A DNA stretch of 34,777 bases from a virus, in the IMG/VR virus record IMGVR_UViG_3300009164_000187, positions 1 to 34,777 of that record; one strand, written 5' to 3'. Made by a program: the position numbers and the translations under genes. Positions 4,148-34,777 of this stretch are shown here, in pieces. Each line of letters begins with the position of its first letter. Within the stretch, counting starts at the first letter, position 1. Below the pieces are notes generated by a model. It was not told the DNA's origin. It ran no database searches and worked only from the letters and a program-made list of their open reading frames with translations.

Positions 4148-4340
4148 ACTAAAAGAACCTGAATGGATCTTTCCGTTTCAAGGGATGGAGATAGGCGATA
4201 GTTTCTTCATCCCTACCTTGCGCTTCGCAGAGATGATCTATGCAGTTGATAGCGGAAGCAAGCGCGCCAAACTCCGTGTTAAGTCCTACGTTACAGTCAA
4301 AGACTCACACATAGGCGTACGGGTATGGCGCGTTGGTTAG
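4122..4340 (+). CDS. Hypothetical 72-aa protein after the primase-helicase
   Basis: A 72-residue unrecognised protein rich in beta-type segments (EWIFPFQGMEIGDSFFIP, then KLRVKSYVTVKD). It begins inside the last codons of the primase-helicase. Two candidate ATGs exist, at 4122 and 4134; neither has a good ribosome binding site, so translation is probably coupled to the upstream gene. The EIGDSFFIPT stretch and basic centre recall small phage proteins often found after replication genes, but no function is known to me. Its TAG stop overlaps the TAA stop of the giant minus-strand gene. It is kept as a real gene because it fills the gap exactly in the direction of the operon. Confidence 0.65.
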   Translation: MVSSMIPSELKEPEWIFPFQGMEIGDSFFIPTLRFAEMIYAVDSGSKRAKLRVKSYVTVKDSHIGVRVWRVG

Positions 4341-10300: not shown

Positions 10301-11767
10301 TGCTTCATCAAGAGATATTTTGGTCTGCGCTGCAACAGCAGCAGCTTCTGTATCGGCCTTTGTTTTTGCCGTCTGCGTATCAGGATCAATATCCGTTAGC
10401 GCTTTACCTGCTTTATCTGTAGCAGGCACCAAAGTGTTTATGTCGTCAGCCGTAGCGCTGATTGCGGCTTTAGTTCTGTTTAGGTTGCCGGTAGTTAATA
10501 CATTCTTAAGAGAAGGATCTTCGCCTTCTGTCTTAACTTTTTCTTCAGCTAGTTCACGCTTAGCTCTAGCTGCTTCAATAGCGCCCGCTGGCGCACCCAT
10601 GCCTAAACCAGCAAGACCTTCCAACGTACCTTGACCCACTACACCGCGCATAGTGGGGACATCAAAGCCCTCACGTTGCAATGCAATGTTCTGTGCTAAC
10701 TGTTCTTGACCGCCTTGACCAAACTCAGTTAAGAATTCTTTACCACCAGCAACCGAAGCGTTCTTCAACATACCGCGTTTAGCAGCTAGTTCAGTTGCTT
10801 CCCGTTGCGAGGCTTTAATAGCGGCATCAGTAGCAGTTTGTTTTGCTGCAGCGCCAGCCACAGCTTTAGATTCTTCTGCAACTGCTTTACCTATGATTTT
10901 TTTACCCAACTCACGGGCAATAATTGGCTCAGCACCAGAGTAAGAACCGAGAGCTCCAAGTATCATGCCCCCCAGAATCATGTCGGTGTTCTTGCCACCA
11001 TACTCTTGTGCTTTTACCGCAATCTCTTCAATCTGTTTTGGAGAAAGTTTTAAATCTTTTTGTTCTGCTAGAGTTTGTTTGGTAGCGTCATAAATAGAAC
11101 TCTTAACAGTACCAGCACCCATCACAGTACCAACACCTAGGGAGGCAGCGGTAGCTAAAGCAACAGGAGCGCCTGCTACAAATGTGGCAATACCAGTCAA
11201 AATTCCCGGAGCAGCAGTACCAAGCCCTTGAGCAATTAGATCGACCGGAGCTTCTTTAAAAGCGTTAAGCGCAGCAACGATGTTTGCAACCACGCCTTGA
11301 TCTTCAGCGGCTTTCATAATCTCAGCCATGCGCTTACTGTCTTTTTTGGACTGCGCGCTATATAACTCAGCAATCCAGTCTTCTGCACCACGTAAGTTTT
11401 TAGATACAGCCGAGTCAGCGCCCATGGCATCTGCCACCATACGGACACCACTTACAACACCGCTACCAACTTTTAATGGAACGTCAGCAACTTGACGGAG
11501 AAAGTTTTGGTCTTCTGGACGCGCTTCTTTTTTAGCCGGTGGTGGCTCAACAGGCTTTTCAGTAGCCGTAGTAGGCGCAGGCGCAGCCTCTCCTCTTGCA
11601 GTTTTTCTACTAGCAAGCCAAGCATCCGGATCAAATCCGGTAGAAGCAGTTGGCTCAGCTGGTTTTTCAGTAGTTGCTTTTTCAGTAGTTGCTTTTTCAA
11701 GATCAATCGGTTTTTCTTTGGCAGCTCTTCTTTCAGCAAGCCATGCATCAGGATCAAAAGCTCCCAT
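4337..11767 (-). CDS. Giant 2476-aa ejection-type virion protein with zincin protease motif and LPD38-like domain
   Basis: The largest gene here, about a fifth of the window. Residues 1-80 are Glu/Pro/Thr-rich and carry the FDPDAWLA motif twice (4-11 and 45-52). Residues 175-280 hold glycine/alanine-rich hydrophobic stretches able to insert in a membrane. At 1108-1112 there is HELVH, a zincin motif; E1166 in the following NIYEFIAYA segment is a candidate third zinc ligand, as in the metallopeptidase domains of polyvalent proteins. From about 1990 to 2330 the sequence resembles LPD38 of large polyvalent proteins (TSRAAAF, NLTNFE, FFMFFKASA), with a hydrophobic helix near 2130-2150. Size and last place in the late operon match T7 gp16-type internal proteins, which enter the cell with the DNA. 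The ATG at 11767 is preceded by GAGAGG. No lysozyme or transglycosylase motif was recognised. The virion role is inferred from position. Confidence 0.8.
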   Translation of the reverse strand: MGAFDPDAWLAERRAAKEKPIDLEKATTEKATTEKPAEPTASTGFDPDAWLASRKTARGEAAPAPTTATEKPVEPPPAKKEARPEDQNFLRQVADVPLKVGSGVVSGVRMVADAMGADSAVSKNLRGAEDWIAELYSAQSKKDSKRMAEIMKAAEDQGVVANIVAALNAFKEAPVDLIAQGLGTAAPGILTGIATFVAGAPVALATAASLGVGTVMGAGTVKSSIYDATKQTLAEQKDLKLSPKQIEEIAVKAQEYGGKNTDMILGGMILGALGSYSGAEPIIARELGKKIIGKAVAEESKAVAGAAAKQTATDAAIKASQREATELAAKRGMLKNASVAGGKEFLTEFGQGGQEQLAQNIALQREGFDVPTMRGVVGQGTLEGLAGLGMGAPAGAIEAARAKRELAEEKVKTEGEDPSLKNVLTTGNLNRTKAAISATADDINTLVPATDKAGKALTDIDPDTQTAKTKADTEAAAVAAQTKISLDEATVKANEIIAKADAGEKLNLKNDIRPVAKALGVKLPFAISSVGAIKLIRDQLGEQGTPDATATTVKPAEPIKPADRSGAELAVPSKDVTQTGDGGAAGPIAGGVVSDGTTTGPTTVGKAAQSTALDDLKAKKAQLTEQRLKLFGGSDRKPSPKSKKGVALAALNAQTLEIDNQIQKLEAETGTTEVAQPKNAAQQDMDYLNDLLGNDGLPARIRRSDAQIEVDQKLDALAKRYGLSRSLDETAKEFGARIKDAIEFENMRTDKPLSAVSDQDIAKQTLREDTSYIPPDLQIEEYERQRQKFNESIERDPETGELQSDELPAYKELSADDRRVYFQEGISRPGAGSNTEHAQAAQRLSDYRSGVKEEAEPYQIKDKKTGELLFNPDGTPMMAKTTLPGETRARESYNRERDSFGRKTGLSYSFPAWNILSDESKKLFTSIYKADSVLSQDMAFRLVKKQIQKELSEEASGNRTRNEQSWVSSQVQQAMETSKTKGQTTEALPANVVEMLFKGDIKGVLDYIYENGNGRKLKTVKQSVMTDIFINKLGRKQAGYRRQRVNIRDSIAMGVFRLVAGRLGAIENLQVNVVYDPGMVYGDLARYNANTNTVYVGPNGLTEGTILHELVHAATVKIIHQFFTDPSKLPAHMRKAVEQLIRVAAAAQKRLGGIEKYKEAFDNIYEFIAYAMTDPDFQADLANQQVESLATVTSRDEEQSEALRLERERAGGEKQYDSFMDNLFNSFTGALAYMYKLFTPKSKSEKVYLYTEQTGFPKVRTEKEIKEGEELEKAAKGPGKEMTASEMEALSPGKLFDRINEKPEGEPKFKSTIQYSHVNGITNLKKAFLREPGFKGNLLLEAAEMFQLILAAPEGGIAQLAGKGSIGSELAAKDQNKPPAAPREGGGIYKKEIRDSYALSVLEKSASRTKAFLNRVFTNKGWRKTFTENIDRTLPLRLREQQFSRAKKLERDPTKYFNNIVEHMDNASGKARQYLVQYIYEPMKELQDSIAELAKITKQDIEKDILPTLHMLAEAFGEPEKRHMKWLLSVPLSLTKNLMHNGKMISAAQRRIDLMGDPRTGKPGIVHKIELTEAQQKQVRAELEALAKGHVDPLGDSPRIKNEKIRERALTKRQKKNQLGVMDINEDSSTYNVLGINKEEVELRLQQFKDMDPAEKEAINKVMASIRKLTKSTSDLNKIGNYWSYPVTNIVGIYDYQNYMPFKGLAKHSIVDEMIEPDGGRTKTSRILIDEEKAAHGRFTVSDNPILQTMSDAARAAGRAGRAEFMQAVLNASNPDKKKNPNGTGIIDADVVERVEFADKETTDLSKYKGKSHIFVHSPDGSLSIIKVNEPDILKALRYQYKDNGFLMDLAAQLTSKVGSMHTRWNMNFAAKNFVSDTLQNAWNIGAGTVGPLSSLKYLIDTVSTTVTKNGLGKSMEVAMLYENGDDASNLRLREMAEKDEFVAALLKMLKFGGKTAYIQSMSLKSSLNELEKGVTKNGVTKSLEAVGKVADVWGSMFEFTSRAAAFQLFEREYLKREIEAGTSNKREPGEEMSPAEYAAAVRAAADTKNLTNFELVGSADSATWMSTFFMFFKASAVSSLRTMESLSPMFRRMEWEEKLLPPAIRDDQTALNNWRKEYKNLQTNAQIMFGSLAAFGYAMYIMSMMMAPEDEWRRNATKTDNMDQWIRYARFHLPPSILKYMGLREDTVLQSPWGFGLGAIASMGAQIAGMVHGETSLKKGLANIAAGSLADAFFPLPVSKMPWSEMPGYAIADTMTPSLVRPYFEYLFNIDGVGRAINSTSNRRLGDAYTGSDRVPQVYKDISDKMFRVSNGDFSWPPNTIHFFANSYIDGIARLGEVAYSLVGVSKEEKTFNPKTDLPLFGSFFGAKSNVDAREYSAMESQIKKMDKTIYTLEQQDPAGALQYEAKNPFNVTLVEMYKARQGELNKLRQKATEIRTDRTLQPSSKEAMLKIITFEQNIIKHEMVEDFKAYGLKP
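11663..11692 (-). repeat. 15-bp tandem repeat (two copies)
   Basis: On the plus strand the unit TTTTTCAGTAGTTGC occurs twice, back to back. In the giant protein it encodes the repeated segment ATTEK-ATTEK within the disordered N-terminal linker between the two FDPDAWLA motifs. It probably arose by slippage; it keeps the frame. Confidence 0.8.
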
Positions 11768-11768
11768 A

Positions 11769-14336
11769 TTAACGACCTCTCAAATCGCGTTTTATTTCTT
11801 CCGCCTTTACTCTAGACCATCCTGTAGATGTCGGGTTATTTGCCCAATCCCATGCGGCTTTGTCATCGCCAGTCAATGTTTTAGGGTTGAAAGCGTCTGG
11901 GTTCTTTTTATCTTTAAGCTCCATTGCTCGATCTCGGTAATCTTGCACCACTGTTTCTGCAACAACAATCCTATCGTTGTATTCTCTATCCAGTTTTATT
12001 ATGGCGGCTTTTGCTTTTGCTAGCTGTGTTTTCATTTCTGGAGTTAGTTTTTCCTCGTCGGCTCTTTCGTATCTTTCGACTACAGCAGCATTCTTTGCAT
12101 ACTCGCCATCTTTTAGACCTTTCTCTCGTGCAATAGCGCCTTTAATATCAGCCGCCTTTGCTTCTGCTTCTCTTGCTTGCTGGAAAGCTTTGGTCACATT
12201 ACCTTGATCTCTAAACACGTTTGTGTTTGCAATTTGCGCAGCGGTAGCTCTATCTCTAGAGTCTACTTCCATCTTAGTGCGCTCAAGAGCATTTCTACCT
12301 GTTGTCTCATCGGATCTAGCACGCGACATAAAGTTAGTGATATCTGACCATGACTTAGACATTCTTTCAGCAATATCTTTCTTCTCTGCAGAAGCCTCTT
12401 TCATATAGCCCATCTTCTCAAGACGAGTAGCTTGATCCAGATCGTATATACCTTTGTCAAGATCACGTTTGATTTTCTTATAAGACTGTTCATCAGTAAT
12501 GATGTCAGGCAATTTTTCATTCAATGCGTTCATACCAGCAACAAGCACTGGGCCGGGAGTTGAACCCCACTTAGCAAAGAATTGAGCAGCGCGCATCCAA
12601 CGTTGGCGTTTAGCCTCGTCATCTGCATTAGCGCGTTCGTCCATAACCTTAGCGCGCATCTCTTGAGCTGCTACGTTAGGACCCATAGCCGCTTCTTTTG
12701 CAGCCGCTATCTCTTCCACCGTACGCGCATCTTGCTGCTTTAGTTTGGAATGCTCCCTCTTAAGCTGAGCTAGATATTGATCATTCTCTCCAGAAAAATC
12801 TTCTACTGGAATTGCTCTTTCAGCAGTCATCGGCGCTGCTTTGGTAAGTGAAGTAGAGGCGTTACCAAGTATGCCGCCCGCAGGGTTTTCATCAAAGCTA
12901 GGAGCTACTTTTGCACCCCTATTTGGCGCTATTTCATAACTTTCGTCCGTAGGAGCAAGAGTTGCGGTATCTACAAGGCTGTAGTTATTTCTTTTATCGG
13001 GCTTAGCAAACGCAATGATGCCACCACCCGCCAACTGTGGTGCTTGATAGTCAACACCCATTGGCCCAGTAGGACCAGCGCCCTGCGCCATTTTCTTTTC
13101 GCGTAAGAGTTGTTTTGCCATCTCACGCACAGTTTTGCTAGAAGACTCGTTAGCTTGTCTCTCTAAGTCTTCTACTTCCATACTTGCAAGTTGGCCTTTG
13201 ATTTCGCCACCAACGTCGTAGCTAGGCACAGACGTAATACCGCCTTGAGCCATAGACTTGATCACGCCACCTTCAGCCTTAGTAGCGTTATAGATAGAAG
13301 CAGCCGCGCCTGCAGTACCAATACCTTGAGTGATAGCGTTAGGAGCCGCAACGTACTGGTTAGTTGTAGTGGCTTGCATTGGCAGACCACGTAACATGTT
13401 GGACATGACACCCAACTGCATGAGCGGGTACTGCTGCGCATTGGCATAGTCTTGGATAGACTGGTTGATCTTCTGCTGCTCCATTGACTGCTGTTGTGCG
13501 CCAACCGTGTTTTGCAGATTAGCAATACCTTGCTCCGTTTGGAGTTGTTGTGCGCCAAGTCCTGCGTACTGCCCAGCGCCTTGCATAGTTTGATTGATAG
13601 CGGCTTGTTGCGCACCAATACCTTGCCCGTACATACCAGCGCCAGCTTGCAAACCTTGCAGGTTTAATCCCGCACCATACTGCTGAGCTTGTTGTGCATT
13701 TTGGAAAGCATTTTGCAAACCTTGGGCTTGGATACCACCAAGCTGAGTACCTAGGTTGCGTTGACGCTCTGCTTCTACCAATGCTTGACGGCTACCACCA
13801 AATGCGCCTGCTTGTACCGCTTGCGCATTGTTACCTTGTTTCTGCATTTCAGACTGGCGAATAGCTTCGTTTTGTTGCCCCTGCAGTACGTTTTGCATGT
13901 ATGGGGACATATACGCCGATATAGCGTTAGGGTCAGTTGCTTGCTGCGCATACTGATTACCAGCATTAGCCGCTGCGTTACCCATGCCATACAGACTACC
14001 AGCTTGCTGTCCAACTTGCGCCGCGCCCATAATGCCTCGGCCCGTGACATCCATAGCTTGCCCAAATGATCCGGGGGTTTGCATACCGCCGACAGTCTTT
14101 TGTGCTTGTTGTTGAAGAGGGCTAAAACCCGCAATATAGTCAGATGCGTTTGTACTGTACGGCTGATATGGTTTGAAACCAGTTATGTTATAGCCGCCGT
14201 CCTCAGTATCGTTCCCCGTAAACAATTGCTTCTGGGTCGCGCCCAGCATCGTCTCGACGTATGGCTTTGCATACTCGGGGATGTTTGAGGTGTACGTTGT
14301 TCCGGTACTTGTTTGATTACCGCCGCCTTTACCCAT
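11769..14336 (-). CDS. Gln/Gly/Ala-rich ejection-type virion protein (855 aa)
   Basis: The reading frame is open to a TTG at 14351, but the ATG at 14336 is the better start, with AAGGAG six bases upstream (14343-14348). The N-terminal 350 residues are very rich in Gln, Ala and Gly (repeated GAQQ, QGLQ and GQ segments), as in podovirus ejection proteins such as P22 gp20. Around 350-440 are several short double-glycine motifs (AEGGVI, AQGGIT, AGGGII). The second half is charged and helical and could form coiled coils. The start codon overlaps the stop of the GNAT-like gene in ATGGGTAA. The stop is one base before the start of the giant gene. Position between a gp13-like protein and a gp16-like giant suggests a T7 gp14/gp15-type role. 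No enzyme motif is seen. Confidence 0.72.
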   Translation of the reverse strand: MGKGGGNQTSTGTTYTSNIPEYAKPYVETMLGATQKQLFTGNDTEDGGYNITGFKPYQPYSTNASDYIAGFSPLQQQAQKTVGGMQTPGSFGQAMDVTGRGIMGAAQVGQQAGSLYGMGNAAANAGNQYAQQATDPNAISAYMSPYMQNVLQGQQNEAIRQSEMQKQGNNAQAVQAGAFGGSRQALVEAERQRNLGTQLGGIQAQGLQNAFQNAQQAQQYGAGLNLQGLQAGAGMYGQGIGAQQAAINQTMQGAGQYAGLGAQQLQTEQGIANLQNTVGAQQQSMEQQKINQSIQDYANAQQYPLMQLGVMSNMLRGLPMQATTTNQYVAAPNAITQGIGTAGAAASIYNATKAEGGVIKSMAQGGITSVPSYDVGGEIKGQLASMEVEDLERQANESSSKTVREMAKQLLREKKMAQGAGPTGPMGVDYQAPQLAGGGIIAFAKPDKRNNYSLVDTATLAPTDESYEIAPNRGAKVAPSFDENPAGGILGNASTSLTKAAPMTAERAIPVEDFSGENDQYLAQLKREHSKLKQQDARTVEEIAAAKEAAMGPNVAAQEMRAKVMDERANADDEAKRQRWMRAAQFFAKWGSTPGPVLVAGMNALNEKLPDIITDEQSYKKIKRDLDKGIYDLDQATRLEKMGYMKEASAEKKDIAERMSKSWSDITNFMSRARSDETTGRNALERTKMEVDSRDRATAAQIANTNVFRDQGNVTKAFQQAREAEAKAADIKGAIAREKGLKDGEYAKNAAVVERYERADEEKLTPEMKTQLAKAKAAIIKLDREYNDRIVVAETVVQDYRDRAMELKDKKNPDAFNPKTLTGDDKAAWDWANNPTSTGWSRVKAEEIKRDLRGR

Positions 14337-14760
14337 AATGAGCTCCTTCAAGGGGCAACTCGAACGTTACCCAATTACTTTTATAACCATCGGATTGAAA
14401 TACTTTAGCCCACCCACGGCGAGCAGTTGCCTCAATCCCATCACAGTTTGTGTCCCGTGCAAACCTCTGAAGAAGTTCTAGCATCGGGGCTTTCCATAGT
14501 CTTAATTCAACACCACCGCAAAACGACATGCATAGCACTTTGCGTTTAGGGTAGATAACAAAGTTTGTTACCACTGCGCCTTTGAATTCTCCGCCTTCAT
14601 ATGCGACCCAAAGCTGATAGTCGTAGTCTGTGATCGAGTCATAGATATCATCGACTGTATAACGTCCATAAGTATAGTCTGCCGCCTTCTCCAGAAAAGG
14701 AGCGATCTTTGCCCAGCACGTATCCACGTACTGAGTCGGGACCATAGAGACTTCGATCAT
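14329..14760 (-). CDS. GNAT-like acetyltransferase-fold protein (T7 gp13-like position)
   Basis: A 143-residue protein whose pattern fits a GNAT fold: an N-terminal helix region, the strand QLWVAYEGGEFKGAVV, then VLCMSFCGGVEL, a helix with LLQRFARDTNCDGIEA, and the C-terminal GWAKVFQSDGYKSNWVTFEL, which is typical of the last beta-alpha-beta part of acetyltransferases. The usual acetyl-CoA signature (Q/R-x-x-G-x-G/A) is not evident, so activity is uncertain. T7 gp13, a similarly sized virion-assembly protein, occupies the same place ahead of the internal-protein genes; function by position is inferred. It starts in an ATGA overlap with the stop of the upstream gene and its own stop overlaps the next start, so the three are translationally coupled. 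Confidence 0.65.
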   Translation of the reverse strand: MIEVSMVPTQYVDTCWAKIAPFLEKAADYTYGRYTVDDIYDSITDYDYQLWVAYEGGEFKGAVVTNFVIYPKRKVLCMSFCGGVELRLWKAPMLELLQRFARDTNCDGIEATARRGWAKVFQSDGYKSNWVTFELPLEGAHYG

Positions 14761-20046: not shown

Positions 20047-20634
20047 TTATCTAAATGGGGTTCCGGTAATCCAAGCAACCAAACTATACCGAGTTCCTTT
20101 GGTTACAGGGCGAACTTCATGTAATACATAACTTGGAAAAACAACCATTTTTCCTAGATCTTTTGACATTAAAGAAGCATCTGGGCCGATCTGAAGAGCC
20201 AATTCACCTCCTTCATAATCTTCTGGAGAGGACAGCTGAATTGTCAAAGATAACTTACGAACTGCACTATGTATAGATTTATCCACATGCAAACCATAAA
20301 AACCTGACGGGGCATCATATCTAGTGAATTGAAATCCTTCGCTAAACCCAAACAAATCAAACTTAAAGAACTGACTGTTTAGGCTCATAACAGCATCTGT
20401 AACTTTACGAAAAGCCCAGTCCATATCATCTGCTGCGTATAACCACGCAATCGTGCTGTCGCGTGTGTCTTCAAGCCTAAATTCACCACCAACAATACCT
20501 TTACTGGGTACTTTGCTCTCTCCAATAGCAATAATTCGAGCACATTCTTCCGGCGTAAAAAGGTTATCCAGATACGCCCAGTGCTCAACATGATCAGGAG
20601 CAAAAGGCCATGCGGAATTAGTAGTTAATATCAT
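20047..20634 (-). CDS. 2-oxoglutarate/Fe(II)-dependent oxygenase (prolyl-hydroxylase-like)
   Basis: A 195-residue soluble enzyme of the 2OG-Fe(II) oxygenase superfamily. The iron triad is complete: H116 and D118 in GLHVDKS, and distal H172 in VLHEV. R182 in KGTRYSL would bind the 2-oxoglutarate carboxylate. EGGELAL before the distal His and the final strand YSLVAWITG also fit the PKHD/P4H-like subgroup. Such enzymes hydroxylate proteins, nucleotides or small molecules; the substrate cannot be told from sequence. It lies between a 58-aa membrane protein (ATGA overlap) and the holin, an odd place for a metabolic-type enzyme. Confidence 0.88.
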   Translation of the reverse strand: MILTTNSAWPFAPDHVEHWAYLDNLFTPEECARIIAIGESKVPSKGIVGGEFRLEDTRDSTIAWLYAADDMDWAFRKVTDAVMSLNSQFFKFDLFGFSEGFQFTRYDAPSGFYGLHVDKSIHSAVRKLSLTIQLSSPEDYEGGELALQIGPDASLMSKDLGKMVVFPSYVLHEVRPVTKGTRYSLVAWITGTPFR

Positions 20635-23747: not shown

Positions 23748-24284
23748 TTAAGCCCTAGATTCAGTTCGTTTCCAAAACGCCCCGTTTTCTTCCCACTGAT
23801 AAGTTTCTCCGTCACTTGGGAACGGAATAGGTGGCTCCCAGTCGTTTGTAACTACGTTATAAACCCAACTGTTGTATGGTTGTGGGCGAACAAAGACATC
23901 TAAATCTTCTCTATATATTCCGCCAAGATAAGCATAGAGTCGTCTAAATTCGGCAGTGGAACTAGTCTGCTTCCACTTTGTATTCGCGCCAAACAAAGAT
24001 TGCAAAAATGCAATGCCCAACGGCTCTGTGTCTGGATATGTTGCGTCACCTAAGACTTGATCATCGACAACAACAACTTGCATAACTATGTTGCTGAAAT
24101 CTAGTTGAGCAAAATGTGCCATATTTTTTTCCTTCCTCCTCCATTTGTTAATTGGGCAACAAGAACTTGAAATTCGCGCCTTGGCGAACATGAAGCACCC
24201 GCACACCTTGCATCGACTTGTAATACTTTCATACTGATCGCATTTTTTACAGATTGATATTCTTGTCTCGTATAGGCTTACCAT
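23748..24284 (-). CDS. Fused reading frame: zinc-cluster protein plus MAHF-type phage protein
   Basis: One open frame holds two parts usually seen as separate genes. Residues 1-54 are a cysteine-rich protein (C12, C15, C25, C28, C30, C42, C43; CKKC, CKVCGC, CPINKW) typical of small phage zinc proteins. From residue 55 a conserved phage protein begins at MAHFAQLDFSNIV and continues to WEEN...WKRTESRA (124 residues). An ATG for this second part lies at 24122 with the strong ribosome binding site GGAGGAGGAAGG eight bases upstream, so it can be made on its own. The frame also extends upstream to a GTG at 24308, but ATG 24284, whose ATGGTAA overlaps the fibre stop, is the better start. Function unknown; the MAHF part is probably fibre-associated. 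Confidence 0.7.
   Translation of the reverse strand: MVSLYETRISICKKCDQYESITSRCKVCGCFMFAKARISSSCCPINKWRRKEKNMAHFAQLDFSNIVMQVVVVDDQVLGDATYPDTEPLGIAFLQSLFGANTKWKQTSSTAEFRRLYAYLGGIYREDLDVFVRPQPYNSWVYNVVTNDWEPPIPFPSDGETYQWEENGAFWKRTESRA
24131..24142 (-). promoter_or_regulatory. Strong internal ribosome binding site for the MAHF part
   Basis: GGAGGAGGAAGG, eight bases before the ATG at 24122, is the strongest Shine-Dalgarno-like sequence noticed in the window, and it lies inside an open reading frame. The same bases code for WRRKE of the fused product. Confidence 0.75.
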
Positions 24285-27200
24285 GTAATAGACCCAGCGC
24301 CTCTCCACGTATAAGTTTTTGTTCCCCCAGAATTTGAGTAACTTGGGCTACCTGTTGTAGATGTTGCATCTGGGTATGAAGATGAGTACTGGACAACAAC
24401 GGCTCCAGTAGCGCCAGCGCCACCAACACCACCAGAACAGCCACTACCTGTACCACCCCCGCAACATTTACCGCCTTGACCGCCACCACCACCAGCGCCA
24501 TAACCAGAGCCAGTACCCCCGGCAACAGAACAGCCACCCGCACCAGCAGAACCACCGCCACCGTTATAAGGAGAACCTCCACCAGCGCCTCCGGGTTGAG
24601 GAGTAGTTGACTGACAAGCGCCGCCGGGACTACCACTTCCCGCACTGCCGGGATTACCACTTGGTGAGCCACCACCACCGCCAGAACCACCCGGATTTGG
24701 GTTAGTAGCGCCTCCACCAGCGCCTCCACCGTTGGCAGTCTGTCCAAATGCGGTTGATGCAGAACCACCACTTCCAGTACCACCGTTAGCATCGCAGCCA
24801 GTACCGGGGCTTCCGTTACCGCCACCTCCACCGCCAACGCTAAATGAATAACTTGTTCCGTTTACAGTAATAGATTGAGTGCTTGCAACATAACCGCCGC
24901 TACCACCACCGCCTCCACCACAGCCAGACCATCCTCCGGTTGCACCGCTTCCGCCACCACCACCGCCGCCTAAAAGGTAGTAGTTAACAGTAAATGTGTT
25001 GTACGGAGTTGTAATACTATTAGAAGCAGAAGATGCAGAACTAGTACCTACAGCATTAGTTGCAGTGACAGTAAACGTATATGAAGTTGCCTGAGACAAA
25101 CCTGTAACAGTAATAGTTCCAGAACCTGCCTGAGACAAAGTCCCAGTTAAACCACCCGGACTTGACGTTGCTGTGTAAGAAGTAATTGCTGTACCACCAT
25201 TACTAGCCGGTGCTGTAAATGAAACTGTTGCTGTGTTATACGCAGTAGCTGTAGCAGTTCCAATAGTAGGAGCGCCGGGGACTGAATAAGTAGTAACAGC
25301 TGAACTTGCAGCACTAGCCGCGCCAGTACCTACCGCGTTAGTTGCAGTTACTGTGTATGTATACGCCGTGTTGTTAGCGCCGCCTGTCGCAGATATAGGG
25401 GAAGAAGCGCCTGTAAAAGTTGAACCCCCGGGACTTCTAGTAACCGTGTAACTTGTAATCGCTGTACCACCAGTAAATGCTGGTGCAGTAAAGGCTACAG
25501 ATTGAGTACCTACTCCAGTATTGGTAGCGCTAACACTTGTAGGAGCGCCGGGGACTGCCCATGACGTAATGGAATTACTAGCCGCTGAAGCCGAACCTGT
25601 TCCTACAGCATTAGTTGCGGTAACAGTAAATGTGTAGGCTGTATTAGTAGTTAAACCTGTAACTGAGATAGTTCCAGAACCAGCTTGAGATAGCGTACCA
25701 GTACCACCTGCTGGGCTAGATGTTGCTGTATACGAGGTAATTGCCGTACCACCATTACTAGCTGGTGCTGTGAATGTGACAGTTGCGGTTGTTGACCCAG
25801 TTGCTGTTGCTGTACCGATTGTTGGTGCCCCGGGGACTGAGTAAGTTGTTACTGAGTTACTAGCGGCTGAAGAAGTACCATTACCGGCGGCGTTAGTCGC
25901 GTATACGGTAAATGTGTACGCAGTGTTGTTAGATAGACCAGAAACAGTGATGCTTCCAGAACCTGACTGAGAGACAGTACCCGTTATTCCACCGGGGCTA
26001 GAAACAGCGGTATAAGAAGTGACCGGTTGAGCATCTGTATCAGTATTAGTTGGGGCTGTATATGAAACTGAAACTGTGCCGACACCCGTATTAGTTGCAG
26101 TGCCAATAGTAGGTGCAGCAGGAGTAGTAAAGTAGCCAATGATTTCCCATTTAGCGCTTGATTCTGAATAGACCTCCATGGCATTTAATGTGGTATTAAA
26201 TCTTGTTGCTCCGTTTGTTGGAGAACCGGGACGTTGAGCTGTTGTCCCAGAAGGAACATCAAAGTACCCAGTAGATGTATTTACTTGGTCGCTCACAGCC
26301 GCTGGAGTAACTGCCGCAGGAGCAGCCCATGTTGGCGCTGAACCATTAGAAGTAAGAATGTATCCGTTTGTACCAATACCTAATTTAGATAGCGCAGTGC
26401 CAGAAACATAGTAAGGCACATCGCCAGCGGCGTAGCTTGTCAGTCCTGTACCGCCATAATTACTAGCAATTGTTCCGCCTTGCCAAGTACCGTTACTGAT
26501 GACCGTAGAGCCAAGGTTTAACGCGTTAGTGCCCCAAGTTACGTTCTCAGGGAGAAACCCATGTACGTCCCATGTACCCGCGACCGTGCCGTTTGCTAAC
26601 AATACAAGTTCAACCGCACCGCCGGAAGTAATCGTTCCAATAGAACCAGTGGCGTAGTCTTGGAGAGTCAGTGTTCCAGTTGCGTTGTTGTTAAATCCGA
26701 ACGCTACACCTGTAGTCAGAGTGGTCGCATCAGGCATCGTATAGGTCTGATTGCCCGTGCCAGTAAGCGTTTGTGAATAACTAGACGCCGCAGTTAAAGC
26801 TGTTGTACCGCCTGCCGCCGCAGTATTTGCATTAGATTGATTTAAACGGTTGATGGATACGTTTTGGTTAGCATCACGCAACATTACCGAGTTAGCACCA
26901 GAAGAAGCGGTTACGCCTGTGCCACCATACGCTACAGCAACAGTTGCCCCTTGCCAAGTACCAGAGGCAACCGTGCCCAACGCACTTACGTTACCAGACG
27001 CATCAAGATTTACAGACCTGCCAGATGGGTAGGTAAGAAAGATACTTAATGCGCCAACAAAAGTAACGGCGCTTCCAGAGTTACTAGAAGCGTAAACAGT
27101 CGTGCGAGTAAGAGTAGGTCCCGTAGTTGAATACGTACCAAGACCTACTTCCCAACTACCACTACCATCTGTAGCCGCGTAATACGTTGTATTGGTATTA

Positions 27201-27310
27201 CCAACAACAGCAAAGGTCTGAAAACCTTGTACAGCACCAGCAAGCGTAAAACTTACAGTGGTATTAGCGGTACCTGTTTCTTGAACACGGTTTGCTAAAA
27301 CTAGAGCCAT
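24278..27310 (-). CDS. Large tail fibre with four fibronectin III domains and a glycine-rich tip (1010 aa)
   Basis: A 1010-residue fibre. The N-terminal 110 residues (MALVLANRVQETGTANTTV, GSWEVGLGTYSTTGPTLTRT, SIFLTYP) form a virion-attachment domain common in phage fibres. Residues 110-390 hold shaft motifs such as YGGTGVT and YGGTGLT. From about 396 to 773 are four fibronectin type III domains, each starting (V)PGAPT or PAAPT and containing ITSYT and NTAYTFTVTATNA-type strands. Residues 776-975 are extremely glycine-rich with seven cysteines, and the protein ends YTWRGAGSITW. Glycine-rich tips of this kind act as adhesins in some phages (polyglycine II helices in phage S16 gp38), so this is the probable main receptor-binding protein. 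AAGGAG lies six bases upstream of the start. Confidence 0.88.
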   Translation of the reverse strand: MALVLANRVQETGTANTTVSFTLAGAVQGFQTFAVVGNTNTTYYAATDGSGSWEVGLGTYSTTGPTLTRTTVYASSNSGSAVTFVGALSIFLTYPSGRSVNLDASGNVSALGTVASGTWQGATVAVAYGGTGVTASSGANSVMLRDANQNVSINRLNQSNANTAAAGGTTALTAASSYSQTLTGTGNQTYTMPDATTLTTGVAFGFNNNATGTLTLQDYATGSIGTITSGGAVELVLLANGTVAGTWDVHGFLPENVTWGTNALNLGSTVISNGTWQGGTIASNYGGTGLTSYAAGDVPYYVSGTALSKLGIGTNGYILTSNGSAPTWAAPAAVTPAAVSDQVNTSTGYFDVPSGTTAQRPGSPTNGATRFNTTLNAMEVYSESSAKWEIIGYFTTPAAPTIGTATNTGVGTVSVSYTAPTNTDTDAQPVTSYTAVSSPGGITGTVSQSGSGSITVSGLSNNTAYTFTVYATNAAGNGTSSAASNSVTTYSVPGAPTIGTATATGSTTATVTFTAPASNGGTAITSYTATSSPAGGTGTLSQAGSGTISVTGLTTNTAYTFTVTATNAVGTGSASAASNSITSWAVPGAPTSVSATNTGVGTQSVAFTAPAFTGGTAITSYTVTRSPGGSTFTGASSPISATGGANNTAYTYTVTATNAVGTGAASAASSAVTTYSVPGAPTIGTATATAYNTATVSFTAPASNGGTAITSYTATSSPGGLTGTLSQAGSGTITVTGLSQATSYTFTVTATNAVGTSSASSASNSITTPYNTFTVNYYLLGGGGGGGSGATGGWSGCGGGGGGSGGYVASTQSITVNGTSYSFSVGGGGGGNGSPGTGCDANGGTGSGGSASTAFGQTANGGGAGGGATNPNPGGSGGGGGSPSGNPGSAGSGSPGGACQSTTPQPGGAGGGSPYNGGGGSAGAGGCSVAGGTGSGYGAGGGGGQGGKCCGGGTGSGCSGGVGGAGATGAVVVQYSSSYPDATSTTGSPSYSNSGGTKTYTWRGAGSITW

Positions 27311-27926: not shown

Positions 27927-28352
27927 TTATGATAAGCGGATGATTGCGGATGTATCGGTAGCAGACGGGAACTGTACCGTGAAAGTTGTTGTTGAGGTCT
28001 TGTCACTACCAAAATCTAGTACGCAAACAGCCCCATTATCTCCGGCCTTATAGATTAACGCACCCCGTGCAGTTAACGCTGAAGTCCAAGATGAGTTTGA
28101 GAAAGAAATATACGACGTAGCAGGATCTGTCCCGCCAATGATTGGCACCTGCGAGATTATAAGTAGGTTGCCCCCAGCCGTATAGCCAGACGCTGATACT
28201 TCTCCATTTGTTGTATACGCAGTAGTAAGGTTGTTAAGCGATGCAGAATTGGTGTACAGGGCAATGTAAAAAGAACCAGACGTAAAGTTGAACGAGCCAT
28301 TCATTAAGCCCGTCAAAAACGTGTTGCATGTCCAATTCCCTGTAAACGCCAT
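27927..28352 (-). CDS. Beta-rich phage structural protein (141 aa)
   Basis: A 141-residue protein with the segments FYIALYTNSASL, EVSASGYTAGG, ARGALIYK and VLDFGSDK, followed by a final FTVQFPSATDTSAIIRL strand. This order recurs in phage structural proteins near tail fibres. It is predicted to be a small beta-sandwich of the tail or fibre region. It starts in a one-base overlap with the upstream stop (TAATG), so translation is probably coupled. Confidence 0.68.
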   Translation of the reverse strand: MAFTGNWTCNTFLTGLMNGSFNFTSGSFYIALYTNSASLNNLTTAYTTNGEVSASGYTAGGNLLIISQVPIIGGTDPATSYISFSNSSWTSALTARGALIYKAGDNGAVCVLDFGSDKTSTTTFTVQFPSATDTSAIIRLS

Positions 28353-29050
28353 TAGGACACCGCCTGTCTATATTGACCAGAACGGTACGCGTCTTGACGC
28401 TCCATACCATCGCCCAAACGTTTAGCCAAAGCTAGTGCTTCCTTGTACTTGCCGTCATAGAAAGCCATAACGTCAGCCTCACCCTTCATGAAGGTGTAAG
28501 CCTCAACTAATGAACCATACAACAATACCGTATCAAAGTTATCGCCAAGCCAAGTCGTACTAGCAGTTACTATTGACTCGGGGTAGTAGTAATAGTGAAG
28601 CTCTACACTATACGCTGCATCAGGGGTTGGGCCAACAAGAAAAGACAACTCATTACTGACCGTAGAAGATGTAACAGTCGGACCAAACAAAGCATAGTAC
28701 TTAGGAATACCAACATCAGTAGTTGGATTGGGATACGCCTGACGGATAAAGTTCACATCCTTGTTCAACAAATATTCATAGTTACCGTCACCATCAATGG
28801 ACGCTAGTGAATATACAGCTAAGAAATCATCTGGAGCAGACAAGTACCTATTACTTGTTGAGACGTTACCTGTGACATTCTTACGTAGTGATGGAAACTG
28901 AATAGTGTTGTAGATGCGTTGTTCTGCCTGCTCGACAAAGCGGGCAATCTGCTCATCTGCGGTTACTGCGGTACCGCTAGATAAATACGTAGTTGGAAAT
29001 TGGTTTTCCGTATACGTTTGGATTGCAGAAGACAACGCAGCGTAGTTCAT
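28352..29050 (-). CDS. Neck/adaptor-like protein (232 aa)
   Basis: A 232-residue protein. The N-terminal helices (ALSSAIQTYTENQF, then IARFVEQAEQRIYNTI) and the following RYLSAPDDFLAVYSLA and LHYYYYPE strands are typical of phage adaptor proteins that sit under the portal. The C-terminal helical half (FDTVLLYGSLVEAYTFMKG, FYDGKYKEALALAKRLGDG) also fits. It shares an ATGA overlap with the small basic gene before it. T7 gp11 and other connector adaptors are the nearest functional parallels; the assignment rests on pattern and position. Confidence 0.65.
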   Translation of the reverse strand: MNYAALSSAIQTYTENQFPTTYLSSGTAVTADEQIARFVEQAEQRIYNTIQFPSLRKNVTGNVSTSNRYLSAPDDFLAVYSLASIDGDGNYEYLLNKDVNFIRQAYPNPTTDVGIPKYYALFGPTVTSSTVSNELSFLVGPTPDAAYSVELHYYYYPESIVTASTTWLGDNFDTVLLYGSLVEAYTFMKGEADVMAFYDGKYKEALALAKRLGDGMERQDAYRSGQYRQAVS

Positions 29051-29310
29051 GCCATCGGGCCTCTAGACTTGATACCTTTGGTAGCCGCTCCATGACCACG
29101 CATAGTGATGCCGTCAGTCTTGGTAGGTTTGAAGTTACCTTTGTTAAGAGCGCCAACAGAAATGTTCATGTCAGACATAGTCTGAGCACCAGTCTTGTTC
29201 TTGATAGCGTTATTCACGTTAACAGACTCACCGCTCATAGTATGGGGCTGAGCATAGGTACTAGCTTGACCAATCTCTTTACCCATCTGCTTATTGCTAA
29301 ATTTAGCCAT
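29047..29310 (-). CDS. Small basic phage protein with DGI...GAATKG...RG tail (87 aa)
   Basis: ATG 29310 with GGAGG upstream is the start; the frame also extends upstream to an alternative start. The 87-residue protein is rich in Asn, Lys, Gly and Met, and ends with a TDGITMRGHGAATKG and KSRGPMA segment. This tail resembles those of three proteins near 31.1-32.3 kb and is common at the end of small proteins in this kind of phage. No fold or function can be assigned. It lies immediately after the 59-aa gene and overlaps the adaptor start (ATGA). Confidence 0.65.
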   Translation of the reverse strand: MAKFSNKQMGKEIGQASTYAQPHTMSGESVNVNNAIKNKTGAQTMSDMNISVGALNKGNFKPTKTDGITMRGHGAATKGIKSRGPMA

Positions 29311-29499: not shown

Positions 29500-29928
29500 C
29501 TAGGTTGTTGATATCGTTACTGTACCAAGTTGCACGCTTAATGCCAAGTTATTTGGCGTTAAAGCGGCATCAAAATATGATGACCCACCTACTGGGTTCC
29601 ACCCCCACTGAATGATACGACTACCACCAGATGGGTATCCGAATCCGTCCTCAGTGTTATTGTTCGTCAAGTCAATCTGCAAACCACTAGATCCTGAGAC
29701 TTGGTAGCTAACATCCGGACGAGGCTCGCGCACCGCCTGTGGGTCATTGACTGGATATAGACCAAGAGACAACTGAGGCTGATCTGGATCCCAACAGGAT
29801 GGACAAACCTTGATGTTGTACAGCTTAGTCTTGACAATCTGCTTTCTTAACTCTTTGAGCATGTAGCGACCAGCACACCGATCGCACTCTGCAATCGCGT
29901 ATTTACCGGAAGCAAACCGACTAGGCAT
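29500..29928 (-). CDS. Zinc-ribbon phage protein (142 aa)
   Basis: A 142-residue protein. The first half is a zinc ribbon: C15 and C18 in CDRC, then C42 and C45 in CPSC, with a basic helix between (LKELRKQIVKTKL). Just after it is the conserved segment LGLYPVNDPQAVREPRPD. The second half is a Gly/Asn/Ser-rich beta region. Phage proteins of this type sit next to head-completion genes. They may be structural; the ribbon suggests binding of a protein or nucleic acid. It starts in a one-base TAATG overlap with the gp4-like stop. Confidence 0.72.
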   Translation of the reverse strand: MPSRFASGKYAIAECDRCAGRYMLKELRKQIVKTKLYNIKVCPSCWDPDQPQLSLGLYPVNDPQAVREPRPDVSYQVSGSSGLQIDLTNNNTEDGFGYPSGGSRIIQWGWNPVGGSSYFDAALTPNNLALSVQLGTVTISTT

Positions 29929-30893
29929 TAGTAAAACAACTGACGAGGAACAAACCTGTCAGGAGCCTTTTCACGATCCTCTTGTGATGCCAATAGCCAT
30001 TGCTGCTCATACTCTTGCTTCAAGAACATTACCCGATCTGGAGACACTTCTGGCTTCTTCTGGGCAATATAGAACGCTAGACCAGCCACCAAACAAGGAA
30101 TCAGACGAAATGGGATATCTTGGATGTTCACACCATTACCAGCATCTTGCAGGCGACGCATACGCCAATACACGAATATGTACTGATCACCGGGGGAATT
30201 AGGGGTAGGCCAGACGTTGATGCTAGGTAAGTTAGTGACCGCTATCGTTGTAGTCGCTATTGCATGCGCAGCGGCTACGGTGTTGTTCTGCCCACGGGTA
30301 CAGTTCAAGAGCTGACCAGCGTTAGGTAAACCTGTAAGCGGAGCTGGATTCACGTTCTGATATACGATTGTTTCTGTAACGCTAGTAGTAGTGACGTTAA
30401 TAAATCCAGCCGTAGCAAGTTGGGTTATATCTGATACATAGACAGTGGTATCGGTAGACGTAAGAGCCGTAGTTAACACAACACTTGTGTTGTTCCCCGC
30501 ACCTGTCTGGCGGTTAATCCAGACTTGAATAGGTCTACCTTGAGCCAGCTTATTAGGAATCATGGCATACGTAGATTCACTAATGCGAGAGATGTTGATG
30601 TCTATCTGGTTCAAGTCATTGGCTTGGGTACGGACTACCTGATCAAGCAGGTCAATCGTGTCTTCTGGGAATGGGTAGATACCCTGCCCAGTGTTCATTA
30701 CGATCTGGCCTTGCTCAATAGTCCATAAATTGATGCCACGGTTAGCCCATTCAATCGTCAGCATGTTGAGCGATCTACGTCCTGTACGGAACTCATAACC
30801 CGTGCGGATCTCTAAACCCGCACGTTCATACGCCTCCTCCATGATCTCGTTGAGATCGAGGTTAAACGCGGTGAGTCCTGTGGTAACCGCCAT
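29928..30893 (-). CDS. P22 gp4-like head-completion protein (321 aa)
   Basis: A 321-residue protein. The N-terminus carries the signature of the gp4 family: LDLNEIMEEAYERAGLEIR, RTGRRSLNMLTIEWANRG, then INLWTIEQG. This family plugs the portal after DNA packaging and in P22 also has muramidase activity; whether this one does is unknown. At about 138-218 is an insert ending LLNCTRGQNNTVAAAHA, which is also present in the gp10-like protein. The C-terminal helical part (PFRLIPCLVAGLAFYIAQKKP) completes the family pattern. Downstream neighbours are a zinc ribbon, two small basic proteins and the adaptor. Confidence 0.8.
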   Translation of the reverse strand: MAVTTGLTAFNLDLNEIMEEAYERAGLEIRTGYEFRTGRRSLNMLTIEWANRGINLWTIEQGQIVMNTGQGIYPFPEDTIDLLDQVVRTQANDLNQIDINISRISESTYAMIPNKLAQGRPIQVWINRQTGAGNNTSVVLTTALTSTDTTVYVSDITQLATAGFINVTTTSVTETIVYQNVNPAPLTGLPNAGQLLNCTRGQNNTVAAAHAIATTTIAVTNLPSINVWPTPNSPGDQYIFVYWRMRRLQDAGNGVNIQDIPFRLIPCLVAGLAFYIAQKKPEVSPDRVMFLKQEYEQQWLLASQEDREKAPDRFVPRQLFY

Positions 30894-30896
30894 TAT

Positions 30897-31145
30897 TTAC
30901 TTTCTGGCTGTTTTGGCTGATTGTCTGAACGCGTCAGCCGTTGGCGCACCTTTGCTACCAACTCTACGCATCTTTTCACCAGACCCTGCAGCAATTCTTT
31001 TACGTTTTGCATTAATGTTGTCATATAGACCAACCTTTCCGCCAGAGGCGTATTGAGTGAAGTCGGTATCGTCGCGGCGTGACTTCTTGACACCTTTAGG
31101 CATCTTAGTTTCACGGATATCTCCCATGCCGCGACTCGCTCTCAT
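30897..31145 (-). CDS. Small basic phage protein with ASGGKVGLYDN and SKGAPTA segments (82 aa)
   Basis: An 82-residue, Lys/Arg-rich protein. ATG 31145 overlaps the upstream stop (ATGA) and is preferred over a longer version. Its features are a basic N-terminus (MRASRGMGDIRETKMPKG), a double-glycine motif YASGGKVGLYDNI at 32-44, and a C-terminus KRKRIAAGSGEKMRRVGSKG then APTADAFRQSAKTARK. This order is widespread in small proteins of tailed phages from aquatic settings. High charge suggests binding to DNA or to another capsid component. Function unknown. It lies three bases before the gp4-like gene. Confidence 0.72.
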   Translation of the reverse strand: MRASRGMGDIRETKMPKGVKKSRRDDTDFTQYASGGKVGLYDNINAKRKRIAAGSGEKMRRVGSKGAPTADAFRQSAKTARK

Positions 31146-31387
31146 CGCTTGCCCTTTGACATCCCGCCACCACACATAGCAGCGATAGTGCCACGAGTCT
31201 TACCTCGTTGAGCAATACCGTCAGCACGGCTAGAAGCTGAGCCACCAGAAGCCATTTTCTTTACTGGCTTTGGCATGGGTTTAGGTTCTTTTTCAACCCT
31301 GATCCCACTACCGGGTTCTGCTGGTTTAGGACCTGTACGAACAGGCTCGTCTACTGGGGTGTAGTCTGGGTATTTAACGTCAGCCAT
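31142..31387 (-). CDS. Small basic protein with RADGIAQRGKTRG tail (81 aa)
   Basis: The start ATG 31387 has GGAAGG a few bases upstream; the frame also extends to a GTG further upstream. The 81-residue protein is Pro/Glu/Lys-rich up to residue 45, then has MASGGSASSRADGIA and QRGKTRG at about 45-66 and an end with MCGGGMSKGKR. The RADGIA(x)RGKTRG motif is shared with the two genes that precede it in the operon. The first half looks disordered. No function can be assigned. Confidence 0.72.
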   Translation of the reverse strand: MADVKYPDYTPVDEPVRTGPKPAEPGSGIRVEKEPKPMPKPVKKMASGGSASSRADGIAQRGKTRGTIAAMCGGGMSKGKR

Positions 31388-31389
31388 GA

Positions 31390-31911
31390 TTAGCACATCC
31401 TTCCACGGGTTTTACCTTTGGTAGCAATACCATCGGCACGACTAGAAGCAGAAGAGACTTTACCGCCAGCCTTGTATCCGCCCATAGAAGCGCCAATGTT
31501 TGCTTCTTTTTGGCGGGCTTGCTTGGCTCTATAGTCTTTTACGATCTTATCGTTTTGCTGTTGAACAATAGCTTTATCCCGAGCTACCATTTGTTCACCA
31601 AGACGTTTAGCATCCTGAGCTTTTTCAGGATCCATTTTGGTCATGGACATGCCTTCGTTCTTAGTCACTGGAGATGACTTAGGGGTAGGCGCAGAATCAG
31701 AAGATTCGCCACGACGGGTTAAACCTTGTTGCTTGTTCATATAGTCACGCAAAGTCATACCAGATGCAGCCAATTCTTCTTTGGTAACAATCTTTGGTTT
31801 AGGCTTTGAGGGTGTTATGGTTTCAGAAGTACCAGCAGAGCCACGACCCTCGCCTGAGTCATAGTCGCTTACCTCATCACCCGCGAAAAAACGTTTTGGT
31901 CGTTTAGCCAT
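31390..31911 (-). CDS. Small charged protein with RADGIATKGKTRG tail (173 aa)
   Basis: The start is ATG 31911, with GGAGCC close ahead. It is a 173-residue protein with a disordered N-terminal part (Lys, Pro, Ser, Glu), a helical charged middle (about 95-138, KMDPEKAQDAKRLGEQMVARD and on) and a C-terminal segment YKAGGKVSSASSRADGIA followed by TKGKTRGRMC. The tail matches its two neighbours in both amino acids and DNA (the plus strand reads CAATACC-TC-GCACG-CTAGAAGC in two of them, with single-base differences), so they are probably paralogues or share a duplicated end. Confidence 0.72.
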   Translation of the reverse strand: MAKRPKRFFAGDEVSDYDSGEGRGSAGTSETITPSKPKPKIVTKEELAASGMTLRDYMNKQQGLTRRGESSDSAPTPKSSPVTKNEGMSMTKMDPEKAQDAKRLGEQMVARDKAIVQQQNDKIVKDYRAKQARQKEANIGASMGGYKAGGKVSSASSRADGIATKGKTRGRMC

Positions 31912-31921
31912 GATAGGCTCC

Positions 31922-32299
31922 TTACATCTTAATGTTTTTGCCTTTGGTCTTGCCTTTAATAGCAACACCATCGCGGCTTGGGGCAGCGGTCTTTACTGCG
32001 CCCATAGCGGAAACTTTTCCGCCCTTTTTCATACCCATGCCGCCCATACCACCCATCATGGTGTTAGCCATAGGAGTAGGCTTTTTCATACCGTCTTTAG
32101 CGGTACTCATGCCGGGTTTCATCATTGGTTTGCCCATCTTAGTAGTAGCCATACGGCCTCCTTCTTTAAAAGTTTTGCCTTTATCGGCTTTAGAAAAATC
32201 TTTACCCACAGACTGTGGAACTCCTGCTTTCTTAGCGAACGCAGCGTTATGGGCTACGGCCTCCATGAAATTGTGTTGCTTCTTGCTAGTGCTAGGCAT
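31922..32299 (-). CDS. Small basic Gly/Met/Lys-rich protein with SRDGVAIKGKTKG tail (125 aa)
   Basis: The start is ATG 32299, one base after the stop of the small membrane gene and with AAGG upstream. The first 45 residues, MPSTSKKQHNFMEAVAHNAA, then FAKKAGVPQSVGKDFSKADKG, form a conserved opening seen in small phage proteins. A Met/Gly/Lys-rich middle (several MGG and MKK segments) follows, and the protein ends KKGGKVSAMGAVKTAAP and SRDGVAIKGKTKG. The N- and C-terminal motifs are therefore separate modules. High positive charge suggests interaction with DNA or the capsid lining; this is inference. Confidence 0.72.
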   Translation of the reverse strand: MPSTSKKQHNFMEAVAHNAAFAKKAGVPQSVGKDFSKADKGKTFKEGGRMATTKMGKPMMKPGMSTAKDGMKKPTPMANTMMGGMGGMGMKKGGKVSAMGAVKTAAPSRDGVAIKGKTKGKNIKM

Positions 32300-32490: not shown

Positions 32491-32736
32491 TCAACAATCC
32501 CATGCCCGTAGGCTTTTGTTAATTCTAGAGTTCGGGTCTTTCGCTGTCTTTGCGGATGTCAGCTTCTTTTTCATCCCACTCATCCTTGCACAGAAAGAGT
32601 CGCGCCTTGATCCGCCTTCTGGTTGCGGCGGTTTCAAGTTGTGCCCTTCTTTCTTCGCAGAGGCTCGCCCTTTGGCGTTTAAGCCCCCATTCGGATTCTT
32701 GCCTTCTTTTCTCTGCCATGCTGGTGATTTAGCCAT
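32491..32736 (-). CDS. DUF6321 family protein (81 aa)
   Basis: An 81-residue basic protein that I recognise as DUF6321. It begins SPAWQRKEGKNPNGGLN and continues with KGRASAKKEGHNLKPPQPEG, RRDSFCARMSGMKKKLTS and DPNSRINKSLRAWDC, all diagnostic of this small phage and bacterial family. No function is established. The ATG at 32736 overlaps the glycosyltransferase stop in ATGGCTAA. The invariant-looking Cys residues (in SFCARM and at the end) might form a metal site or disulphide. Confidence 0.85.
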   Translation of the reverse strand: MAKSPAWQRKEGKNPNGGLNAKGRASAKKEGHNLKPPQPEGGSRRDSFCARMSGMKKKLTSAKTAKDPNSRINKSLRAWDC

Positions 32737-34655: not shown

Positions 34656-34777
34656 TTAAGCACCGGCAGAGCCGTACATACCTAAAGGATCAGACCAGCC
34701 GAAGCTGTAACGCTCACGAGACTTGTAACGGACGTTACCAGTATCGAAGTCACCGTCCATAGACTGACTCAAAGCAA
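34656..34777 (-). CDS. C-terminus of probable major capsid protein (partial)
   Basis: The last 39 codons of a gene that enters from beyond the right edge. The readable end contains SMDGDFDTGNVRYKSRER, then YSFGWSDPLGMYGSAGA before TAA at 34656-34658. A Phe-Gly-Trp-Ser/Thr-Asp stretch and a Gly-Ser-Ala-Gly-Ala end are what I recall from coat proteins of this kind of phage, and a strong terminator follows directly. Only the end can be seen, so identity is probable, not certain. The start and length cannot be judged. Confidence 0.58.
   Translation of the reverse strand, partial: ALSQSMDGDFDTGNVRYKSRERYSFGWSDPLGMYGSAGA

Follow-up and report, generated by a model that had tools for sequence, protein, structure and literature searches.

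A conserved C-terminal tag on dissimilar small proteins in the head-gene module of aquatic phages, a probable signal for particle loading

The window analysed here is the whole 34,777-base record of an uncultured virus (IMGVR_UViG_3300009164_000187), in which the genes of the tagged island and its flanks all lie on the minus strand. Starting from the MCP end, the order is p233, p98, a glycosyltransferase-like gene, DUF6321, a 62-aa membrane-like protein and three tagged proteins of 125, 173 and 81 aa. Downstream of the 81-aa gene follow an 80-aa phrog_16028 protein, a 321-aa adaptor-like protein, p142, p59, p87 and an SU10-type adaptor. The MCP gene is partial in the window and its complete relatives are Phage_capsid_4/Mu gpT-like. 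ORF starts are mechanical throughout, the caller taking the first start codon; the overlap of the A226 gene with p80 in L149-L154 is an artefact of this rule, the real start probably lying later. The features of the tagged island and its flanks are as follows.

34656..34777, minus strand: C-terminal end of the MCP gene (last 39 codons, stop at 34656-34658), the upstream boundary of the island
32491..32736, minus strand: small basic protein DUF6321 (PF19846), without the tag in the window
31922..32299, minus strand: 125-aa tagged protein, class B, with a predicted 3-helix microdomain at residues 6-38 (the phrog_16759 module), a disordered GG-rich linker and the tag
31940..31978, minus strand: tag SRDGVAIKGKTKG of the 125-aa protein, with 5 residues between it and the stop
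31390..31911, minus strand: 173-aa tagged protein, class A, with a hypervariable body containing the VTKEELAASGMTLRDYMN motif
31393..31455, minus strand: tag SSASSRADGIATKGKTRGRMC of the 173-aa protein, at the extreme C-terminus and 7 residues past the xAx[RK]G core
31142..31387, minus strand: 81-aa tagged protein, with the body YPDYTPVDEPV... and 15 residues beyond the tag
31190..31240, minus strand: tag SASSRADGIAQRGKTRG of the 81-aa protein
30897..31139, minus strand: 80-aa phrog_16028 small basic protein, an untagged conserved neighbour (alternative ORF start at 31175; start codon provisional)
29928..30893, minus strand: 321-aa first head-tail adaptor-like protein, the downstream boundary of the island
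29047..29310, minus strand: 87-aa protein (p87), with the tail RGxGAATKGxxxRGPMA before the stop; one orthologue per genome, adjoining the SU10-type adaptor
28352..29050, minus strand: SU10-type adaptor (PF24175, E 1.6e-22)

Elsewhere in the window, the sequence predicts oxygenase-like and acetyltransferase-like proteins (20047-20634, 14329-14760), a 1010-aa repeat protein whose end is rich in Gly (24278-27310) and a 2476-aa ORF (4337-11767).

The original prediction held that the three consecutive genes of 125, 173 and 81 aa have a common tail, which we confirmed as SRDGVAIKGKTKG, SRADGIATKGKTRG and SRADGIAQRGKTRG, respectively. The motif occurs in 3 ORFs of the window and in none of 200 amino-acid shuffles. 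That the proteins end in this tail is true of the 173-aa protein, which stops at RMC, and not of the 125-aa and 81-aa proteins, which run on for 5 and 15 more residues. The likeness proposed for the 173- and 81-aa copies at the DNA level was borne out, with 34/45 positions of the tag DNA identical; the 125-aa copy is identical to the other two at 27/45 and 23/45 positions. The 87-aa gene, ending in KTDGITMRGHGAATKGIKSRGPMA before the stop, had been put forward as a looser version of the tail. It is missed by a profile of the GKT tag but fits the wider tag family described below, and a first reading of its tail as unrelated was reversed by the wider-family scan.

To locate the tag in other viruses, a degenerate DNA pattern for DG[IVM]Ax[KR]GKT[KR]G was scanned alone in IMG/VR and in genome contigs. 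More than 120 viral contigs matched in IMG/VR, compared with 5 of 11.3 million genome contigs. Among the matches listed, all 183 tagged ORFs lie on the structural strand and 178/183 are compatible with a position between the MCP and the first adaptor: 63 follow the MCP and precede the adaptor with both flanks seen, 95 precede the adaptor where no MCP was recognised in the contig, and 20 follow the MCP where no adaptor could be placed. The remaining five lie beyond the adaptor. The outcome that would have told against the original prediction, tags never linked to capsid genes in other phages, did not occur, the tags clustering between MCP and adaptor across viral contigs. Fifteen near-complete records (41-66 kb) carried tags in 14 cases, each in a single cluster, with no match to the reversed pattern. 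Equally, when 80 loci were picked independently by their adaptor and not by the tag, 73 were tagged and the other 7 contigs end within 1.1 kb upstream of the adaptor. Complete MCP-to-adaptor islands were available in 28 and contained 1-4 tags in 28/28, although the sole tag match of the L190 island is weak, at 13 bits where reversed-sequence controls reach 14. Islands with both DUF6321 and the adaptor have 1-5 tags at >=20 bits in 115/117 cases.

Whereas the DGIA.GKT.G residues were fixed by the scan pattern, the distance to the stop and the flanking residues were not. The stop nevertheless falls exactly 3 residues past GKT[RK]G (the main class) in 105/183 of the ORFs among the matches listed, against about 1% expected. 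Also conserved outside the pattern are S-A-S-x-R-[AG] upstream, a Q and a hydrophobic or Cys last residue, with V, C and I dominating. Four-fold codon positions within the tag vary freely while the amino acids stay constant, and selection therefore acts on the tag peptide. Tags are more alike within a genome than expected by permutation (0.649 versus 0.578; 0/2000), with synonymous identity barely raised (four-fold-site identity of 0.42 within contigs and 0.39 between contigs); this likeness is expected from a shared partner but also reflects lineage. The tag matched nothing in Pfam, PHROG or the PDB, in line with its not being part of one known globular domain. Searching phage isolates with the tail peptide (tblastn) gave no match, nor did a search with a tagged 64-aa protein, and of the papers listed when open-access literature was searched by sequence string none was relevant.

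Two departures from the terminal position were seen. The tag is doubled in tandem inside single proteins in L119, L045 and L010, as GGSVFRKxADGIAxKGKTKGTMVKM repeats. A small family (L030, L034, L083 and L112) has a DGIAxKGKTKG motif near the N-terminus followed by KNLGDSGP, its gene lying beyond the adaptor and outside the main island. Doubled tags (L045, L119) and N-terminal copies (L030, L083) would not be predicted by a purely terminal address.

Pelagibacter phage HTVC023P was reached through isolates that share this capsid family, and its gp51, encoded between the capsid and adaptor genes, ends YSRGGGAAVRGMGFKGVF and has the C-terminal tag RGGGAAVRGMGFKGVF. A second scan with the pattern RGxGAAxRGxxF placed it at the extreme C-terminus in 123/124 ORFs among the matches listed, in which 7 residues follow xAx[RK]G in 96 and 6 in 25; in the first tag, too, 7 residues follow xAx[RK]G, as in KTRGKMC. 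The second tag has TKFxG in place of KTRG with the spacing unchanged, and a hybrid end, RRNGIAIKGTKFKGIF, exists. The same portal/scaffold/MCP/adaptor head family was present in 113/114 second-tag contigs among the matches listed, the tagged genes lying mostly between portal and scaffold or ahead of the adaptor. These contigs are probably mostly marine, judging from their likeness to the Pelagibacter phage and not from sample records. The generic form R-x-x-G-x-A-x-[RK]-G-x(6-8)-COOH was seen 432 times among the matches listed, against 0.2 expected; its core-to-end distances peak at 7 (289) and 8 (115), and both scans had selected tag cores, not the distance to the C-terminus. Since core, spacing and neighbouring genes are shared, we infer that the two tags are homologous and form one superfamily of this form, including the 87-aa protein of the window. 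The 173- and 87-aa window proteins fit the superfamily spacing, while the 125- and 81-aa proteins have longer ends.

The bodies upstream of the tag are highly diverse. After removal of the tag, 366 bodies fell into 107 BLAST clusters, 78 of them singletons, and the 107 representatives matched Pfam essentially only via DUF6321. The claim that the N-terminal parts are unrelated needs qualifying: some bodies share the short motifs LRDYLN and PVDEP, and their apparent unrelatedness is partly fast divergence. A helical motif, K-x-E-L-x-x-S-G-[ML]-[ST]-L-R-D-[YF]-[LM]-N-x-x-x-G-L-x-R-R, is common to the window gene at 31390-31911 and to L102, L170, L172 and L097, and its LRD..N core occurs in 11/236 class A proteins. 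The description of the proteins as small and basic was upheld, with 236/236 class A proteins net positive (median +10); a good deal of the charge sits in the tag itself, the body median being +3.5. By the charge-hydropathy rule 95% of the bodies in class A, the strict class, are predicted to be disordered, and GG occurs within the final 45 residues of every class A and class B protein. In AlphaFold2 models the tag has a pLDDT of about 45-60 and no secondary structure. Weak Pfam matches to window proteins (E 0.03-0.2) and one LPXTG-anchor match (7e-4) were set aside as composition noise. Searching the 107 representatives with PADLOC gave no convincing anti-defence family, with one match at 1e-5 to a type II nicking endonuclease model and two weak ones.

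The 125-aa family makes up the largest body cluster. AlphaFold2 models its N-terminal module confidently as a 3-helix microdomain; Foldseek with the 125-aa model returned nothing at E<=1e-3. This module (phrog_16759/phrog_22033, SKKQ..FMxAVAHN) is separate from the tag and also forms the N-terminal part of the proteins in an 845-aa 'virion structural protein' family. In phiKZ-like jumbo phages the SKKQ..AVAHN module (window 31922-32299) is found as small proteins standing alone (phiKZ ORF165.1; AF399011.1 171679-171804), and in Stenotrophomonas phage BUCT555 it adjoins portal/scaffold-region genes. DUF6321, normally untagged and with no tag in the window, bears an appended GKT tag in L075, L085 and L121, and the tag is thus an add-on module. 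DUF6321 is common in cyanophages. The window copy (32491-32736) is 89% identical to that of Synechococcus phage MinM2 (OQ594354.1 9188-9433), in which the gene sits away from the capsid genes, and its conservation is unusually strong for a basic, disordered-looking protein.

Tagged genes turn over far faster than their neighbours. At 75-90% adaptor identity, a homologue could be detected in the partner for 13% of class A bodies, compared with 96-100% for DUF6321, p80, p142, p87 and the SU10 adaptor and 78% for p98 and class B; the number of tagged genes ranges from 0 to 5 among relatives. In 155 gene-partner comparisons the bodies are non-homologous and the ends homologous, DNA homology resuming at a median of 80 nt before the stop, which equals the tag length. 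Since the tag is conserved anyway, where homology resumes is not in itself proof of recombination there; contiguous near-identity running into the downstream flank does suggest it. The body is swapped between flanks 87-95% identical in L161/L180, and an entire tagged gene has been gained or lost in L145/L148 and L153/L155.

Diverse bodies, fixed spacing, conservation at the protein level and a near-exclusive tie to one head module, here extended to other phages, together strongly support the core idea of the original prediction, a C-terminal targeting or assembly tag on dissimilar proteins. Known systems offer parallels. The capsid-targeting sequence (CTS) of T4 let internal proteins be found by their leader, and those proteins turned out to be injected and to inhibit host restriction. 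T4 Ip1-3 have only this N-terminal packaging leader in common (PMC12373910; PMC9026906). As with IPI-III, small proteins that change fast and are otherwise unrelated carry one short terminal signal, which by itself suffices to find candidates, and each genome has several cargo genes (PMC9026906, PMC12373910); here one tag spans the 107 body clusters, and the cargo varies between close relatives. In contrast to the N-terminal CTS, the present tag is C-terminal, in class A mostly 3 residues before the stop. The head lineage, with its Phage_capsid_4/Mu gpT-like MCP and a GroES-like gene, also differs from T4, no sequence likeness was noted, and the tagged genes are embedded in the head module, packaging of their products being putative. 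No prohead protease was found among the TerL-to-MCP ORFs of L076, and a T4-type step of cleavage after delivery is not supported here. We do not class the tag as a CTS because its position is not N-terminal and processing is at most putative; by analogy it would work like the T4 signal without being homologous to it. The DarA and Hdf proteins of P1 are head-internal and thought to protect injected DNA (PMC12810830). They are specific structured proteins seen in cryo-EM. We know of no C-terminal tag shared by DarA and Hdf. Encapsulin cargo-loading peptides are short, often C-terminal, found on different proteins and load an HK97-fold shell; they belong to bacterial enzyme compartments and are a different peptide, and shell binding by the present tag is putative.

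Because a constant terminal address, replaceable cargo and one head module resemble the T4 CTS and internal proteins, we read the tail as a C-terminal signal that would target a hypervariable set of cargo proteins to the virion, an interpretation we favour with measured confidence and in which packaging, recognition, placement within the particle and ejection are proposed by analogy. Late in infection, the phage would make a small set of basic proteins, mostly disordered and quick to change, all of which end in R-x-x-G-x-A-x-[RK]-G-x(6-8)-COOH after a GG linker. A component of the head family (capsid protein, scaffold, portal or adaptor) may bind the tag together with its free carboxyl end and so draw the proteins into the growing head, and the cargo would probably be released into the host together with the DNA, like the T4 internal proteins. 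The tag would thus be a constant address and the bodies exchangeable cargo, with tag DNA lying at the junctions of body swaps and of whole-gene gain and loss. A Mantel test of tag against MCP distances over 33 common contigs was not significant or discriminating and singled out no candidate partner. In this head family the portal and scaffold proteins (L076:5205-7712, L076:8308-9276 and L041) both start with acidic stretches rich in IEIE, which may form a counterpart to the basic tag.

Other explanations account for parts of these data. The tag could instead dock proteins on the portal or adaptor ring as neck or assembly factors that are not ejected; its genes stand among those for portal, scaffold, MCP and adaptor, and p87 and p80 are conserved one-per-genome neighbours of the adaptors. 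Structural parts should be conserved, however, whereas class A bodies look disordered and have been exchanged even where the phages are closely related, and copy number varies from 0 to 5; we consider such a role unlikely. DNA binding, named in the original prediction, would have the basic KGKTRG condense or anchor packaged DNA, which then carries the proteins in. It agrees with the uniformly positive charge of class A, and basic internal proteins are also found in T4-related phages (PMC9026906). Yet conservation extends to non-basic positions (SAS, DGIA and the hydrophobic last residues) and to the spacing from the free carboxyl end, and the second tag swaps KTRG for TKFxG at the same spacing, which makes this option less likely and, in our estimate, improbable.

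A control signal for late small proteins, such as a C-degron or a site for a host or phage regulator, has still less to recommend it. Degrons do feature a free C-terminus with a hydrophobic residue or Cys in last position, and V, C or I dominate here, but a signal unconnected with the virion gives no reason why the tag, in freshwater and marine relatives alike, should be confined to a single head-gene module. A selfish or recombining DNA element placed at the ends of genes, for which the peptide would be a by-product, would fit the swap junctions at the tag and the tag DNA shared by neighbouring genes; as a pure DNA element it was dropped, being largely refuted by the wide variation of synonymous codons around fixed amino acids and the near-equal four-fold-site identities, and we regard it as very improbable. 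We likewise dropped a nucleotide- or phosphate-binding loop, for which we see hardly any chance: GIAxRGKT fits the Walker A string GxxxxGK[ST] and nothing beyond it, while Rossmann-like context is absent, the modelled tag is disordered at the chain end and the second tag has no GKT.

Returning to virion targeting, many uncultured aquatic phages tag several dissimilar small head-region proteins, probably marking them for particle loading. More tentatively, this may be a cassette system of abundant aquatic phages, in which the tag both targets cargo and serves as a homologous junction for swapping in injected effectors. In the same reading, freshwater and marine lineages within one head family would have kept a single address tag, and the effectors would likely have an anti-host or counter-defence role, which would extend the T4 analogy a step further. 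If the tag works like the CTS, its C-terminal pattern would turn up hundreds of candidates for injection among the proteins of uncultured aquatic phages, the majority without a database relative. A cultured phage bearing the tag is available in Pelagibacter phage HTVC023P, through gp51, and the tag would, if this reading is true, be a portable loading signal for another capsid type.
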